A stretch of DNA of 64,000 nt from Halosimplex litoreum. Lineage in GTDB: Archaea; Halobacteriota; Halobacteria; Halobacteriales; Haloarculaceae. A program made the translations under genes and the position numbers. A model generated the notes under the pieces. It saw nothing but the letters and a program-made list of their open reading frames with translations, was not told the origin of the DNA and did not search any database. The stretch covers positions 1,363,836 through 1,427,835 of the forward strand of contig NZ_CP065856.1 of NCBI RefSeq assembly GCF_016065055.1, written 5' to 3'. Positions 48,805-60,629 of this stretch are shown here, in pieces (within the stretch, counting starts at the first letter, position 1; each line of letters opens with the position of its first letter).

Positions 48805-49764
48805 ATGGATCTCGACAACATTGTTTGGACAGCGCTCGACCGATCAGAAGCTGTGCTACCGTTTTCACCGAAGCAGGTGATGCGGTCACTGGGATTCATA
48901 CCTTGGAGATTGCGTGGACCGATAGTGAGAGCTGCCGAGTACCGTTATCAACGGGCAACGTATCCGGATCCACTCACACCGATCTGGGAGCGGGACTGGG
49001 ATCTGCTCGTTGTTCTCGACGCGTGTCGCCCAGAGTGGATGGCTGCCGTGGAGGACGAGTACGGATTTGTCTCAGATACCGGTACAATTCACTCGGTGGG
49101 GAGCCATTCGAAGGAATGGATCTCAAATACTTTTACGAGCGAATACGACTCTAAGATGGAAGACACAATCTACATCACAGGAAATCACTACGCTGAGGGA
49201 TTGGGTCAATCTCCTCTTCGTAAGTTCGTGACTGCACATGAAGTTGGCGAGTGGGCCTACGAGTCTGCGTCACCTCCAGCGAATATTATCACTGATTTAG
49301 CAGTCCGAAATTGCCGAAGGACTGAATGGGACCGCTGTATTGTTCACTATATGCAGCCTCACAAGCCGTTTATTTCTAGATCAGGTGACCGTGGCGACTT
49401 CACGGTAAAGGAATGGTCAACCAGATACGGCCCATACCATCGGTACTTCAACGGCGAGCTTTCTCTCCAAGATCTCCATGAAAAGTTCGTAGAAAATTTG
49501 CGGTACGTTCTCGACGAAGTGGAAATACTACTGAACAACGTTGACGCCCCAAATGCGGTCCTAACAGCGGATCACGGTCAAGCGCTCGGAGAGGGCGGAC
49601 TTTGGGATCATACTCCAGGTGTGAATCACCCCTCCATGCGATCTGTCCCCTGGGTGGAGACTAACGCAGTTGACACGCACGGTCATCAACCGAAGGAGTA
49701 CGAGTCAACCAAGTACGACGACGAAACGGTAAAACGGAACCTCAAAATGCTAGGTTATCGGTGA
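48805..49764 (+). CDS. Alkaline-phosphatase-superfamily (sulfatase-like) protein, short form A
   Basis: 319 residues. Metal-site pattern WDLLVVLDACRPEWM (Asp near 72), IVHYMQPHKPF mid-protein, and VLTADHGQALGEGGLWDH (Asp-His near residue 254) mark the AP superfamily; the cluster DTHGH near the end could complete the second metal site. It ends TVKRNLKMLGYR, carrying the L-G-Y tail seen in four AP proteins here. Closely related to the gene at 52183 (same V-H-Y-M-Q-P-H segment). Probably acts on sulfate or phosphate groups of surface glycans. In the low-GC block. Confidence 0.82.
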   Translation: MDLDNIVWTALDRSEAVLPFSPKQVMRSLGFIPWRLRGPIVRAAEYRYQRATYPDPLTPIWERDWDLLVVLDACRPEWMAAVEDEYGFVSDTGTIHSVGSHSKEWISNTFTSEYDSKMEDTIYITGNHYAEGLGQSPLRKFVTAHEVGEWAYESASPPANIITDLAVRNCRRTEWDRCIVHYMQPHKPFISRSGDRGDFTVKEWSTRYGPYHRYFNGELSLQDLHEKFVENLRYVLDEVEILLNNVDAPNAVLTADHGQALGEGGLWDHTPGVNHPSMRSVPWVETNAVDTHGHQPKEYESTKYDDETVKRNLKMLGYR

Positions 49765-52182: not shown

Positions 52183-53115
52183 ATGAAAGTACAGAGGAGT
52201 CAAATTCGTCTCGGACTCTCGAATCCGAAACTTCTCGCACGGAAATTATCTCAGTTCTACAATTACAGGCGTTCGCAGTCGGACTACAATCCGGAGGGGA
52301 TCGACTTCATGACGCAGGATTGGGACTGCTTGACCATTCTCGACGCCTGCAGATACGACTTGTTCGAATCGGAAAACACGATCGAAGGAACCCTTCGAAA
52401 GGTCGTCTCTCGCGGTTCGGCGACGCCGGAATTTCTGCGAGGGAATTTCCGGGACCGCGAGTTTCTCGATACGGTGTACGTCACGACGAATCCGATGCTC
52501 CAGCGCCACGACAGCGAGATCAACACGGTGTTTCACGAAGTAATCGACCTCTGGGCCGGAGACACCTGGAACGACGAACACGAGACGGTACTGCCGGAGA
52601 CCGTCACCAGAGAAGCCATAAAAGCGGCCGAGGAGTTTCCGAACAAACGGCTCCTCGTCCACTACATGCAACCCCACTACCCGTTTCTCGGTGCCGACAC
52701 GGATTTCGACAAAGGACACATCGACGATTCCGCCGCGGACGACCTCACGACCTGGATGCAAGTGATGACCGGTGAAGTCGACATCGCTCACAGTGATTTG
52801 TTGGAAGCGTACACAGAGAACCTCCGACGCGCACTGCCACACGTCGAAGAACTCGTCGAGAATATCACTGGAAAGACAGTTGTGACCTCCGACCACGGGA
52901 ATATGCTCGGCGAACGATCGTCACCGATCCCCATCCGAGAGTGGGGACACCCCCAAGGAATCTGGACCGACGAATTGGTCTGTGTCCCGTGGCTCGAAAC
53001 GAAGTGGGAAAAACGCCGGGAGGTCGTCAGTGAACCACCCGACAGCGAGACAGCGGGTAGTGAGTCCGACGCCGTCGAAGAACGGCTGGAGAGTCTCGGA
53101 TACGTGGATACGTGA
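52183..53115 (+). CDS. Alkaline-phosphatase-superfamily (sulfatase-like) protein, short form B
   Basis: 310 residues, paralogue of the gene at 48805: DWDCLTILDACRYDLFESE (Asp near 54), LLVHYMQPHYPFLGADTDF, VVTSDHGNMLGE (near 237) and a GHPQGIWTDELVCVPWLETK end region. Terminates VEERLESLGYVDT, again with L-G-Y. A basic N-terminus (KVQRSQIRLG) and no signal peptide point to a cytoplasmic or membrane-peripheral enzyme. Substrate probably a glycan-linked sulfate/phosphate. GC content is nearer the genome norm than its paralogue. Confidence 0.82.
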   Translation: MKVQRSQIRLGLSNPKLLARKLSQFYNYRRSQSDYNPEGIDFMTQDWDCLTILDACRYDLFESENTIEGTLRKVVSRGSATPEFLRGNFRDREFLDTVYVTTNPMLQRHDSEINTVFHEVIDLWAGDTWNDEHETVLPETVTREAIKAAEEFPNKRLLVHYMQPHYPFLGADTDFDKGHIDDSAADDLTTWMQVMTGEVDIAHSDLLEAYTENLRRALPHVEELVENITGKTVVTSDHGNMLGERSSPIPIREWGHPQGIWTDELVCVPWLETKWEKRREVVSEPPDSETAGSESDAVEERLESLGYVDT

Positions 53116-53265: not shown

Positions 53266-54375
53266 TCACGCATAACCGAGGTCTTCGAGCCGTTCGTGAA
53301 TCACCTCGTTTTCGAGGTCGGACGTGACGGTGTCGGTCGAGTCTCGCTTTTCGGGGACGTCGCAGTCGACCTGTAGTCGATCGAGTATCGCTGGGGTCAC
53401 GTCCACGTGGCGTTCCAGTTCGAACGGCTCGGTCGCGCCCCAGACACCTTGCGTCGTGTCGTGGTCCATTCGCATGTCCTTGTCGGGTCGGTAATCGGAA
53501 GCGGGTCGCATCCCGTGATCCGAGAGCACGAGCGTCGTGTCTGGGTCGATAGCGTCGACGACGTCTCCAGTCAGTCGGTCGACCAGCTCGTAGGCGTCCC
53601 GGATGATCGACGTGTCCTCTGTCGCGTGCATGATGTCGTCGAGACCCCGAAACATGAGGAACCCGACCTCCAAATCCCGCTCGGGCGAGAGTTTTTCGTA
53701 GAGTTCGACGTACTTCTCCGCGTTCGCCTCCATCCGCCGTAGATGTCGATCGCAGTACGGCCGTTCCTGTACCGACGGGTCGTTGACGGGCGACTCCTGC
53801 TCGACGTAGTATCCGGCGTCGTCCCCATCGTAGACGGTCTCCTCTAATCGTTCGGGATATACGACCGGGTTGCTAGCCTCTTCGAATTTCGGTGCAGGGA
53901 TTCCCGAAACGACGACGCCGTTGGTCTCTCGGATCGGATACGTCAGCGGAAGCCCGTATACGAGGCCGTCCCCGTCGATGTACTCCCAGAAGCGTTTGTA
54001 CGGGATGTTCGTACTGTCCACTTTGTCGCCCTTCTCGCCTTTCGTACCAGCCCCGAGTGCTCCCAGCACGCGTCCGATCAGAATACGTCGAACCAACGGG
54101 GGAAGCCACGTCTGGGTGGCGAGAGAGCGTATCGGACCGGAGAGCGGGTGATCGGAGTATGGACCGTACACGAAGCCCAACATTCCGTGCTCGGAGAAAG
54201 GAGCTCCAGTCGAGATCGTCGTCCACGCGTTCGCGCTGCTGATGTATCCGGCTTCGTCGAACGGGTGTTCGGGAAGTAACCGCCCATTCTCGGACAACGA
54301 TTCCCAAAACGGCAGATCGAACTGTGACAGGTGACGACTCGTTGCCGCGTCCCACCCGATGACGAGAGTCTCCAT
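53266..54375 (-). CDS. Type I phosphodiesterase / nucleotide-pyrophosphatase-like AP-superfamily protein
   Basis: 369 residues. LVIGWDAATSRHLSQFDLPF gives the first metal Asp, SSANAWTTISTGAPFSEHGM the Thr nucleophile region of the phosphodiesterase group, then FLMFRGLDDIMHA, TTLVLSDHGMRPASDYRPDK and DHDTTQGVWG for metal ligands. It ends EVIHERLEDLGYA. It therefore belongs to PF01663-type enzymes rather than true sulfatases, acting on phosphodiester or sugar-nucleotide bonds. Downstream end of the large minus-strand glycan operon. Confidence 0.85.
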   Translation of the reverse strand: METLVIGWDAATSRHLSQFDLPFWESLSENGRLLPEHPFDEAGYISSANAWTTISTGAPFSEHGMLGFVYGPYSDHPLSGPIRSLATQTWLPPLVRRILIGRVLGALGAGTKGEKGDKVDSTNIPYKRFWEYIDGDGLVYGLPLTYPIRETNGVVVSGIPAPKFEEASNPVVYPERLEETVYDGDDAGYYVEQESPVNDPSVQERPYCDRHLRRMEANAEKYVELYEKLSPERDLEVGFLMFRGLDDIMHATEDTSIIRDAYELVDRLTGDVVDAIDPDTTLVLSDHGMRPASDYRPDKDMRMDHDTTQGVWGATEPFELERHVDVTPAILDRLQVDCDVPEKRDSTDTVTSDLENEVIHERLEDLGYA

Positions 54376-56526: not shown

Positions 56527-57708
56527 TCACGCTCGTTCGCCCCCCGTCAACTCCGCGTACTCGAGCTCGACGCGCGACGCGATCTCGCTCCACTCGTGGT
56601 CGCCGGCCCACGCTTCGGAGGACGCGGCCATCCGCTCGTACGTATCCGGGTCGCCCAGTAACTCCTCCATCCGGGCCGCGAGTTCGCCGATCCCGTCGCG
56701 TGGGACGAGATACCCCGTCTCGCCGTCGGCGACCGCGGTCGGGATGCCGCCGACCTCGGTGCCGATCACGGGGGTTCCGCAGGCCATCGCCTCCATGAAG
56801 ACGATCCCGAACCCCTCGTACTCGGAGGGCAGGACGAACAGCTCGACCGACGAGTACAGCGACGGTAACTCCTCGTCCGGGACGAACCCCAGGAACGACA
56901 CGTCGTCGGCGACGCCCAGATCCGACGCCAGATCTTTCAGCGACGACTCCAGTCGCCCGGTCCCGGCGATCAGCAGCTCCGCGTCGGTCCCGTCCGCCCG
57001 TGCGAACGCGCGGATCGCCTTGTCGATCCCCTTGCGCGGGTCGAGACGGCTGAGCACCAGTACCGAGGGCCGGACCTCGCTCACCGCGGGGTGGCCCCCG
57101 GACCGCTCGCTGAACCGCTCGGTGTCGATCCCCGGCGGAACCGTCCGGAGCTTCGACTCGTCGAAGCGATACAACTCGCCCAGCTGCTCGCGGGTGTGGT
57201 CGCTGACCGCGACGATCCGGTCGGCCAAGCGTCCGCTGACGGCGTCCATCACCACGTTGATCGGGTGGAACACGTACTTGAACAGGTAGTCTGGGGGGCT
57301 CTGGGGGTCGACCGACCGAGCCTCGTCGTAGGAGGTGCCGTGGCTCGTCAACACCAGCGGCGCGTCGATCGACCGGAGCAACCACGGGCCGAGCGCGACC
57401 GTCGAAGCCGGCATCAACGTTCCGTGAATCACGTCGTAGCGCTCGAAGTCGATCCGGCGTCGGCAGGCGATACTGAAATACAGCGTCGACACCACCACGA
57501 GCGGGCGCGCCTTCGTGATCCTGGTCACCGAGACGTTCTCCTGTGTCGGCGGCGGGTCGTCGCCGTCGGGGACCGCCTGGGTGTACACGTCCACGTCGTG
57601 CCCTCGTTCGCCGAGCGCGTTCGCCAGTTCGTAGGCGTAGGTCGCGCCGCCGCCCGTCCGCGGGGGGTACATCTTCGTTATCAGGCAGATCCGGAGGCCG
57701 TCGGTCAT
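56527..57708 (-). CDS. GT4 family glycosyltransferase
   Basis: 393 residues, GT-B fold. ICLITKMYPPRTGGGATYAY is the N-terminal glycine loop, LTSHGTSYDEARS the acceptor-site His, PSVLVLSRLDPRKGIDKAIR the donor-domain start, and EYEGFGIVFMEAMACGTPVI contains the E-x7-E motif, followed by GGIPTAVADGETGYLV. Start ATG overlaps the stop of the preceding sulfatase gene as ATGA, so it belongs to the tightly packed operon 60504-54501. Clearly related to the GT4 gene in the low-GC block. Confidence 0.92.
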   Translation of the reverse strand: MTDGLRICLITKMYPPRTGGGATYAYELANALGERGHDVDVYTQAVPDGDDPPPTQENVSVTRITKARPLVVVSTLYFSIACRRRIDFERYDVIHGTLMPASTVALGPWLLRSIDAPLVLTSHGTSYDEARSVDPQSPPDYLFKYVFHPINVVMDAVSGRLADRIVAVSDHTREQLGELYRFDESKLRTVPPGIDTERFSERSGGHPAVSEVRPSVLVLSRLDPRKGIDKAIRAFARADGTDAELLIAGTGRLESSLKDLASDLGVADDVSFLGFVPDEELPSLYSSVELFVLPSEYEGFGIVFMEAMACGTPVIGTEVGGIPTAVADGETGYLVPRDGIGELAARMEELLGDPDTYERMAASSEAWAGDHEWSEIASRVELEYAELTGGERA

Positions 57709-59021
57709 ATCGTCGCGTCCTCCGCGGCGAGGTCGTCCGTCACTCGGCGGATCGACGCCTTCTCGGTCCGCGTTCGGTCGTGTCGGTCGAGCACGGCTGA
57801 GAGCGACTCGACGACCGCCCCGTGATCCGCCGACACGTCTTCGGTCTCGTCGGAGTCCTCGTGGAGGTCGTAGAGCCGTTCGGTGGCCGTCTCACGGTCC
57901 CGGACGAGCTTCCACGACGGCGTGCGGACGGCCCGGCGTCGGTCGTTCTCCGTCTTCGACAGCACGGCTCGGTCGGTGTACGCCGTCGGGTCGAACCCCG
58001 TGGGGTCGGCCAGGTCGGTCAGCATGTCCGGCAGCGACCGCAGCGAGACCTGCTCGTCCACCTGCCCGCGGACGCCGGCGTTGTGGACGAACATGGGCAC
58101 CCGGATGTTCTCGTCGTACAGCGCCTGCGGGTGGCCGAAGTTACCGTGGTCGCCGACCGCCTCGCCGTGGTCCGCACAGAAGACGGTGACCGGATCGTGC
58201 GGGGCGACGGCGTCGGCGAGTTCGTCGACGAACGCGTCGACCGAGCGGACGGCGTCGCGGTAGGCGGCGCCGATCATCTCCCGGGCGTGGTCGGGGATCG
58301 CCTCGTCGGCGCTCTCCCCGTACCAGTAGCGCAGGATCGAATAGTACATCCGCCAGGCCGACGCCTCCTCGCGGAACCGCCGCGGCGTGATGTACGGCTG
58401 GTGGGAGTCGAGGACGAACACCCAGAGGAAGAACGGTTCGGACAGGTCCGACAGCTGTTCGGTGACCAGCTCGAAACTGCCCGGCCACTGTGAGAACCAC
58501 TCCTTCTTGTCGCTCCAGCCGAGAGGGTCTCCCGGAAGCGCGTCGAGGCCCGTGTCGGCCAGTTTGAACAGCGTCGAATCGGAGAGCTGCGTCGAGGAGA
58601 TGTCGTCGCTGTCGGCGCTGATCTCGAAGAATCGGTCGAAGCCCGCGTCGAAGTTGCTCTCGCGGGTGGTCCAGGGGTTGGCGGTGATCCCGGCGGTCTC
58701 GTACCCCATCGCCCCCAGCCGCTCGCTGAGGTGGCTGAACCGCGCCATGTGCCGGCCGATGCGCTGCTGGCGACCGCGCCAGTCGCCCATCGACCACTCC
58801 GGGTCCTCGGCCACGAACTCGCCCGTGAACAACACCGGGACCGACGACGGCGTGCGTGGCCCGGCCGCTATCGCCTGCGTGAACGAGAGCCCGTCGCCGG
58901 CGACCCGGTCGATGGCCGGGGTCAGGCTCGAGTCGGGATCGACGAACCCGCAGTGGTCGGCACGGAGGCTGTCGACCGTGACGAACACGAGGTTGCGTCG
59001 CTCCGCGCCGGGACTCGTCAT
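57705..59021 (-). CDS. Sulfatase-like AP-superfamily protein without LGY tail
   Basis: 438 residues. NLVFVTVDSLRADHCGFVDP supplies the metal Asp, AAGPRTPSSVPVLFTGEFV the nucleophile region, VFVLDSHQPYITPRRF and VTVFCADHGEAVGDHGNFGH the remaining ligands. There is no C/S-x-P-x-R formylglycine motif, so it may be a phosphohydrolase/transferase rather than a true sulfatase. Unlike the other four AP proteins of the island it ends in a basic/acidic helix (RRVTDDLAAEDATI) with no L-G-Y. Its ATG overlaps the stop of a 70-residue protein that does end in L-G-Y. Confidence 0.88.
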   Translation of the reverse strand: MTSPGAERRNLVFVTVDSLRADHCGFVDPDSSLTPAIDRVAGDGLSFTQAIAAGPRTPSSVPVLFTGEFVAEDPEWSMGDWRGRQQRIGRHMARFSHLSERLGAMGYETAGITANPWTTRESNFDAGFDRFFEISADSDDISSTQLSDSTLFKLADTGLDALPGDPLGWSDKKEWFSQWPGSFELVTEQLSDLSEPFFLWVFVLDSHQPYITPRRFREEASAWRMYYSILRYWYGESADEAIPDHAREMIGAAYRDAVRSVDAFVDELADAVAPHDPVTVFCADHGEAVGDHGNFGHPQALYDENIRVPMFVHNAGVRGQVDEQVSLRSLPDMLTDLADPTGFDPTAYTDRAVLSKTENDRRRAVRTPSWKLVRDRETATERLYDLHEDSDETEDVSADHGAVVESLSAVLDRHDRTRTEKASIRRVTDDLAAEDATI

Positions 59022-59230
59022 TCGTTCAGGTACCCCAGCGACTGGAGACGGTCCTCGACACCGGCGTCGTCGACCGCGAGCTCGCGCCCCTGGGCGTCGT
59101 CCTCTTCGAGACTCGCGAGCACCTCGTTCAGGACGTACCCGGCGTAGTCGTCGGCGGTCTCGAACTCCGTGTGTTCGGCGCGCGTTTCGATGCGTTCGAT
59201 CAGGTCGTCGGAAATCGAGATGTCAGCCAT
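59018..59230 (-). CDS. RHH-like small protein with sulfatase-type LGY tail
   Basis: 70 residues. The N-terminal half, ADISISDDLIERIETRAEH then TEFETADDYAGYVLNEVLA, looks like a ribbon-helix-helix (strand, helix, turn, helix); an acidic spacer (LEEDDAQGRELAVDD) leads to GVEDRLQSLGYLNE, nearly identical in pattern to the ends of four AP-superfamily proteins of the island. The gene lies two bases after one sulfatase-like gene and overlaps the next by ATGA. Could be a DNA-binding regulator, or an adaptor supplying the tail in trans. Confidence 0.8.
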   Translation of the reverse strand: MADISISDDLIERIETRAEHTEFETADDYAGYVLNEVLASLEEDDAQGRELAVDDAGVEDRLQSLGYLNE

Positions 59231-59232
59231 CG

Positions 59233-60504
59233 TTACTTGTACCCCAGCGCCGACAGTCGGTCTTCGATCTCGTCGTCGACCGCCTCGGTCTCGCTCGCCT
59301 GCGTCGTTCCCTCCGCGTCCGTTCGCTCGGCCACGTGGCCGCGCAGTTGCGCCGCCGTCTCGCCCTCCGCGTCACCGCCCGAGAGCGAGAGGTCGTCGGC
59401 CGTCGTGTCGTACTCCCCGAACCAGGTGGCCGACTCGCTCCGAGCGCTGAACCGACGGAGATGTGCGTCGCCGTCCTCGCCGCGCGCCTGCGAGACGACC
59501 ACCCGGTCGGCGTACGCTTCGGGGGAATCGACGACCGCACGCAAGTCCTCCCCGGGGAGTCCTGTCACCGGTGTGCCCGCCGTTTCGAGTGCGGTCCGCG
59601 CGACGTCGAGCGTACTGGCCGGCGTTTCGATAGTGGCCGACGGTACGTCGGGACCGGCCATCACGAGCGGGACGTGGACCAGTTCGTCGTGCAGGTATCG
59701 GGGGTGCTCGAAGTAGCCGTGTTCGCCGAAGGCGTCGCCGTGGTCGGCGGTGAGGAGGACCAGCGACTCGGAGAGAAGACCCCGCTCTTCCAAGCCGTCG
59801 AACAGCGACCGGAGCCGGTCGTCGGTGTAGTTGATCTCCGCGTCGTAGAGATCCATCAGTCGCTCGCGCTCGGCGTCGGTGATGCTCTCGGGGTCGCTTA
59901 TCGCCCGCTGATAGAGGTCCTGAGCGGCCGAATCCGGGACCGCCTCGCCGTGGAACTCGCGCTGGTACGCCGCGGGCGCCTCGTAAGGCCCGTGGGGGTC
60001 CATGTAGTGGTTCCAGAGGAAGAAGGGCCCGCCGTCCAGCGAGTCGAGCCACTCCAGCGACCGCTCGTTGATCTCCGAAGCGCGCGCGTAGTGGCGGTTC
60101 CGGACCTTGTCGAGCGCCCGCTGTGCGAGCGCCAGCAGCCTGTTCTTCCCGAGGTGGAGGTCGTCGTCGAAGTGGTCGAACCCCTGGTCGAAGCCGTAAG
60201 CCCGCGACACGAACGGGTTGGAGTGGAAGCCGGCGGTCTCGAACCCGTTCGACGCGAGCCTCGCCGCGACCGTGTCCGCGTCTCGCTGGTAGCCCGCGTC
60301 GACGGCGTCGTCCGGATACCGGCCGGTCAGGATCGACGGCACCGCCTCGCGAGTGTGCGAGCTCGCGCTGAACGCGCGGTCGAACCGCGCACCGTCCGCG
60401 GCGACGGACGCGAGAAACGGCGACGTCTCCCGCTCGTATCCGTAGCACGAGAGGTGGTCGGCCCGAAGGGCGTCGAATGTGATAAGGACGATATTCCGCG
60501 GCAT
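59233..60504 (-). CDS. Sulfatase-like AP-superfamily protein with LGY tail
   Basis: 423 residues. NIVLITFDALRADHLSCYGY is the classical start, SSHTREAVPSILTGRYPDDA the nucleophile region (no formylglycine C/S-x-P-x-R), LWNHYMDPHGPYEAP the central loop, and LVLLTADHGDAFGEHGYFEH the second metal-site motif. Ends EIEDRLSALGYK. ATG at MPRNIVLI is taken; a longer frame adds 20 non-conserved residues in a probable promoter. First gene of the operon running to 54501. Confidence 0.9.
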   Translation of the reverse strand: MPRNIVLITFDALRADHLSCYGYERETSPFLASVAADGARFDRAFSASSHTREAVPSILTGRYPDDAVDAGYQRDADTVAARLASNGFETAGFHSNPFVSRAYGFDQGFDHFDDDLHLGKNRLLALAQRALDKVRNRHYARASEINERSLEWLDSLDGGPFFLWNHYMDPHGPYEAPAAYQREFHGEAVPDSAAQDLYQRAISDPESITDAERERLMDLYDAEINYTDDRLRSLFDGLEERGLLSESLVLLTADHGDAFGEHGYFEHPRYLHDELVHVPLVMAGPDVPSATIETPASTLDVARTALETAGTPVTGLPGEDLRAVVDSPEAYADRVVVSQARGEDGDAHLRRFSARSESATWFGEYDTTADDLSLSGGDAEGETAAQLRGHVAERTDAEGTTQASETEAVDDEIEDRLSALGYK

Positions 60505-60629
60505 GGCTATCGAGTTGCTATCCCTGTCGTTCGGAGTTAATGTTTCTCCTTCACACAAATTCACACTGCCACGAAACAGCGAAACACAATTACCGTGGGC
60601 CGCGAACCGAGGACCGACGGAGTCAACCA

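Follow-up and report, generated by a model that had tools for sequence, protein, structure and literature searches.

The window is a stretch of 64,000 nucleotides of a haloarchaeal chromosome (G000:C1:1363836-1427835, G000 being the window's own genome), with genes called by a simple composition script. Within it, four genes lie head to tail on the minus strand: a gene for an enzyme of the alkaline phosphatase (AP) superfamily, a small gene, a second AP-superfamily gene and a glycosyltransferase gene. The first (59233..60564) encodes an enzyme with a Thr nucleophile that ends RLSALGYK (59236..59259), an L-x-x-L-G-Y tail carried in cis; the GTG at 60564 listed as its start probably lies too far upstream, and the ATG at 60504 is likelier because a 90%-identical orthologue begins there. 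The second (59018..59230) encodes a 70-residue protein, here termed RHH-LGY, formed by a ribbon-helix-helix-like (RHH-like) domain (approximately residues 1-48), an acidic linker and a C-terminal helix; its C-terminus (...VEDRLQSLGYLNE) contributes residues 61-70, RLQSLGYLNE (59021..59050), which include residues invariant in relatives. The third (57705..59021) encodes a 438-residue PF00884 enzyme with the Thr nucleophile T57 (GPRTPSSVP), and its C-terminus (...RTEKASIRRVTDDLAAEDATI) has no L-G-Y. The fourth (56527..57708), downstream of this tail-less enzyme, encodes a GT4-like glycosyltransferase. The first junction is a gap of 2 nt and the last two are ATGA overlaps, that between the RHH-LGY gene and the tail-less AP gene occupying 59018..59021. 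This -3 overlap is also kept in several relatives, the order AP-RHH-AP-GT is found again in relatives, and Halosimplex carlsbadense has an AP gene 89% identical to that of the window.

Three more genes of the window encode proteins with tails in cis: an AP-superfamily protein of the PF01663 type ending RLEDLGYA (53266..54375, minus strand), an AP-superfamily-like protein ending RLESLGYVDT that falls below the Pfam cut-off (52183..53115, plus strand), and another ending NLKMLGYR with a weak match to the STM4013 family (48805..49764, plus strand). The initial annotation of this DNA had described four cis tails, a 57705 protein without one, and an ATGA-coupled 70-residue protein ending RLQSLGYLNE, all of which are present as quoted. 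Its count of five AP-superfamily proteins is secure for 57705, 59233 and 53266, which match PF00884 or PF01663 in Pfam (57705 scores 106.4 bits against Sulfatase, PF00884, with a curated cut-off of 25); the 48805 and 52183 proteins have no Pfam match above threshold and are assigned to the superfamily from weaker matches.

A regular expression for the tail, applied to 1.27 Mb of fetched haloarchaeal DNA, matched 118 genes, of which 51 were AP genes, 66 were RHH-like and one was neither; outside the AP and RHH-like genes of these loci the rate was 1/1090, the single match being a CysD-like protein. An even sample of 400 kb from G000 gave 2 matches among 408 genes, and both encode membrane proteins with F-G-F endings and no L-G-Y. 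The tail is also strongly conserved. Across 43 AP-linked RHH relatives, Y29 and the tail residues L62, L65, G66 and Y67 are invariant. When tailed AP proteins are aligned, Planctomycetota among them, L417, G421 and Y422 show the same invariance as catalytic residues such as D11, T51 and D254-H255. Literature searches on the tail, or on an RHH protein together with sulfotransferases, yielded only one relevant report (PMC11980604).

The distribution of the tail follows the catalytic nucleophile. A census of 42 PF00884 matches, drawn independently of the RHH gene, covered 16 haloarchaeal genomes, with 12 proteins from G000 and 30 from 15 other genomes picked for the absence of 57705 relatives, and the C-termini were read through. 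Proteins with a Thr or Ser nucleophile have the tail in 31 of 32 cases, the sole exception being 57705, which stands beside the RHH-LGY gene, and proteins with a Cys nucleophile (the formylglycine type) have it in none of nine (Fisher p=2.9e-8); one remaining match has neither kind of nucleophile. Only two of the 42, both window proteins, are encoded within 1.5 kb of an RHH-LGY gene. It is thus the Thr-type branch, and not sulfatases generally, that the tail marks. Bacterial relatives recovered by the 57705 family search also have Thr nucleophiles; about half of them match the tail expression and several more have x-G-Y-like ends. Formylglycine sulfatases share their fold and the PF00884 domain with these proteins but differ in their Cys nucleophile and in the absence of an L-G-Y tail (0/9). 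Their signature, the Cys in C-x-P-x-R, is absent from 57705 and its clade, which have Thr, and 57705 is more likely to be of the sulfotransferase type than a sulfatase.

The nearest characterised proteins are Agl30 and Agl31 (VNG1056C and VNG1057C), AP-superfamily members that sulfate the N-glycan of Halobacterium salinarum, as established by deletion, mass spectrometry and expression in Haloferax volcanii (PMC11980604). The cloning primers in Table 1 of that paper encode the C-termini HLEDLGYL for Agl30 and LEELGYT for Agl31, in frame with a StrepII-His tag, and the primer for VNG1063H reads KELGYIE. Because the tagged Agl30 and Agl31 still sulfate glycans, a free tail carboxylate is not needed. 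These enzymes thus resemble those of the window in being AP-superfamily proteins of a glycosylation cluster with an L-G-Y tail; the closest PDB fold to the model of 59233 is 6HHM, which is likewise the one reported for VNG1057C (PMC11980604). They differ in that their tail is in cis, with no RHH subunit described and no discussion of the tail in the portion of PMC11980604 available here, whereas 57705 has no tail. The Thr/Ser branch probably contains Agl30 and Agl31, both of which bear the tail. From the proven activity of these tailed enzymes, and from the richness of the surrounding island in glycosyltransferases, we infer that the 57705 and 59233 enzymes probably serve that island as glycan sulfotransferases.

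The association between tail-less AP genes and RHH-LGY genes was examined from both sides. On the RHH side, the set consisted of 69 AP-linked RHH-LGY genes scoring at least 40 bits, many of them found via the RHH gene itself; the nearest AP gene within 10 kb was tail-less for 63, tailed for 3 and absent for 3. Where the nearest AP gene lay within 350 bp, it was tail-less in 39 of 39 cases, and at loci with both kinds of AP gene the one nearest to the RHH-LGY gene was tail-less in 18 of 18 (7 expected, p<2e-6). The two genes are divergent in 24 cases, with the RHH gene upstream on the same strand in 21, convergent in 9 and with the RHH gene downstream in 3; arrangements kilobases apart also occur. 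On the enzyme side, 57 of 391 genomes carry a 57705 relative at E<=1e-45, and an RHH-LGY gene lies within 350 bp of it in 34, within 3 kb in 48 and within 30 kb in 56, one genome having none within 30 kb. Among members of the 57705 family, an RHH-LGY gene is found within 3 kb of 49 of 71 tail-less proteins and of none of four tailed ones (p=0.012), so that 22 of the 71 tail-less members have none at that distance. Relatives of 57705 and RHH-LGY genes occur together in 50 genomes against 8.7 expected, and a separate scan of named genomes placed an RHH-LGY gene within the 5-kb flank of 21 tail-less relatives and of no tailed ones. The suggestion that tail-less AP genes adjoin small tail-bearing genes more often than tailed ones do is thus borne out (63 nearest against 3). 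The initial annotation held that the idea would fall if tail-less homologues generally lacked such a neighbour or if the small family occurred mostly away from AP genes; it is the tailed members of the 57705 clade and the tailed PF01663-type proteins that lack an RHH neighbour, and 66 of the 69 AP-linked RHH genes have an AP gene within 10 kb, so that neither condition refutes the idea.

The largest set behind this association, the 57705 family, is a single clade (73 rows, SH-aLRT 100) within which a tailed subclade is nested. Only four changes of tail state occur in the PF00884-type tree, and an independent-pairs test has too few pairs for significance. The association recurs in other lineages. 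A second tail-less PF00884 clade (in G333, G348 and G355) has RHH-LGY genes within 3 kb, RHH-LGY genes adjoin four of five tail-less PF01663-type proteins and none of 12 tailed ones, and in another archaeal family three tail-less AP genes directly follow an RHH-LGY gene. Tail-less PF01663 proteins of yet another family also lie in clusters with RHH-LGY genes. A mere genomic coincidence, in which glycosylation islands simply abound in both kinds of gene and an old neighbour has been inherited by the 57705 clade, could draw on the many AP genes per island and on the dominance of one large clade. It is already disfavoured, and indeed highly improbable, in view of the nearest-AP test in mixed loci, the four orientations, the several AP lineages and the invariance of the tail residues.

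The explanation considered fairly probable is that the L-x-x-L-G-Y tail is a required module of the Thr/Ser AP branch, and that the RHH-LGY subunit supplies it in trans where the enzyme has none. In the usual state the enzyme would carry the tail at its own C-terminus, behind a flexible acidic linker; the model of 59233 (pLDDT 85) has a disordered linker at residues 398-409 followed by a tail helix at 411-419. The tail would have been lost in the 57705 lineage and, independently, in a few others, where a small, probably dimeric RHH-like protein would carry it. This protein would bind the enzyme, perhaps via a substitute C-terminal helix, and present the tail in trans, and the tail would then either dock to a partner or complete the enzyme. 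Tail-less AP proteins have a different, helix-like C-terminal motif (consensus approximately ERERIADAARELAAEGSL), which also occurs in some unrelated tail-less AP proteins; it is clear in L092, L094 and L091 and weak or absent in others. In 57705 the corresponding segment (ESLSAVLDRHDRTRTEKASIRRVTDDLAAEDATI; 57708..57809, minus strand) is a candidate docking site for the RHH protein, to be taken as a lead only. The in-trans tail put forward in the initial annotation is partly supported, by the gene association and the complementarity of tail states, but the annotation's term 'sulfatase-like' should give way to Thr-nucleophile and sulfotransferase-like. An APS kinase is recognisable in only 28 of the 391 haloarchaeal genomes, so the usual route to PAPS is missing from most genomes with sulfotransferase-like AP proteins. 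None was found in G000, which counts against the preferred explanation as regards the sulfate donor.

The 70-residue protein of the window has no match in Pfam, including PF01402. Among its relatives, a paralogue that is not linked to AP genes scores 22.4 bits against PF01402 (cut-off 20.5) and the more distant L218 protein 17.7. The monomer model (pLDDT 74) has helices at residues 8-18 and 26-48, a low-confidence linker and a tail helix, with no strand assigned; its best PDB fold matches are RHH proteins, among them NikR, MazE and ParD, at E-values of 0.6 or worse, and a PDB sequence search with the RHH profile gave nothing meaningful. An RHH-like domain, as first proposed, is indirectly supported by the relative above the PF01402 cut-off and by the helical model, with the fold matches weak and the window protein itself outside Pfam. 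The seven matches to the protein in haloarchaeal plasmid records all bear the annotation 'hypothetical protein', and the family is unannotated. Some likeness exists to the RHH antitoxins ParD and MazE-mt1, which are also small RHH-like proteins with a C-terminal tail and an ATGA-coupled partner and which give weak fold matches; the RHH-LGY partner differs in being an AP enzyme whose relatives bear the tail, and nothing suggests toxicity.

RHH proteins are usually DNA-binding, and the RHH-LGY protein might accordingly be read as an autoregulatory transcription factor of glycan-sulfation clusters, with the tail as a sensor or dimer element that the enzymes do not need. Often the RHH-LGY gene comes first or is transcribed divergently from the AP gene, and RHH relatives that precede ATP sulfurylase have a neutral KYTTVSIP strand, as in PF01402 members; neutral relatives could bind DNA. 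Such a role is nevertheless unlikely for the family linked to AP genes. It predicts neither the tail-less neighbour (39/39 adjacent; 18/18 in mixed loci) nor the tail rule of Thr-type enzymes, and it sits poorly with the convergent and kilobase-distant arrangements. In addition, the would-be DNA-facing residue of the central strand is acidic in 22 of 43 AP-linked members and the mean net charge of the domain is -7.7, and an acidic domain with Glu or Asp at that position favours a structural role.

How the tail acts is a separate question. It might act on the enzyme itself, folding onto the AP body or a neighbouring protomer and completing or capping the active site with no third partner, and the RHH dimer would supply it to the tail-less lineage; this is a sub-case of the preferred explanation and not exclusive of it. 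Choline sulfatase offers a precedent: the C-terminal tail of one protomer extends to the active site of the other, and catalysis requires it (PMC5870055). The likeness lies in an AP-superfamily tail that acts across subunits; the difference is that choline sulfatase is a homo-oligomer carrying its tail in cis, with no L-G-Y module described (PMC5870055). The family-wide coupling of tail and catalytic Thr also fits a self-acting tail. This possibility is rather doubtful, however, since the tail helix is modelled after a disordered linker, and since CysD-like proteins and the AP-unlinked RHH paralogue share the tail, which argues for a common receptor.

These other bearers of the tail deserve description. 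The paralogue (G000:C1:43864-44070; L002, L177) is a very conserved PF01402 RHH protein that ends QLEDLGYLD, has no AP neighbour and is 78-100% identical in 29 of 40 genomes searched. Because this near-universal haloarchaeal paralogue stands away from AP genes, the RHH-plus-tail architecture alone implies no AP partner. Haloarchaeal CysD-like proteins (L281-L310) are present in 80 of 80 genomes searched, and the 30 whose ends were read all finish in ERLRDLGYM (full ending ...RAQDKEDLMERLRDLGYM). CysD of other archaea (L219-L223) ends QKLRALGYM, and both endings resemble the sulfotransferase tail. CysD, the small subunit of sulfate adenylyltransferase, thus has a similar ending on an unrelated fold, hinting that the tail may dock to sulfate activation. 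The CysD-like protein (80/80) and APS kinase are uninformative for co-occurrence testing. The tail shared by the CysD-like proteins and the AP-unlinked paralogue favours docking to a third partner. Extended further, the tail could be a general docking signal of a prokaryotic sulfation assembly, in which sulfotransferases, CysD and RHH adaptors would share one partner, activated sulfate would be handed over locally and RHH adaptors would plug in the tail-less enzymes; this wider proposal is speculative and on balance rather improbable.

If the in-trans explanation is correct, the tail would be near-obligatory in a class of sulfotransferase-like enzymes of archaea and bacteria, and would separate them at sight from the true sulfatases that annotation confuses them with. 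A terminal module of an enzyme would have been split off onto an RHH protein, a fold usually classed among gene regulators. It would also offer a handle on the sulfate supply to surface glycans in the haloarchaea (363 of 391 genomes) that lack a recognisable APS kinase.

Two further arrangements were observed. At one locus (L126; G044:C21:149420-156917) five tail-less genes of the 57705 type are packed into 7.5 kb and one RHH-LGY gene lies some 12 kb from them; a single RHH adaptor may serve several enzymes there. In a further archaeal family (L212, L213, L215 and L218), genes for an RHH-LGY protein, a DHH-family protein, a tail-less PF01663 AP protein and an APS kinase form operon-like clusters, with ATP sulfurylase present in some but not in every one, and a complete sulfation pathway around the tail-less AP protein is possible.
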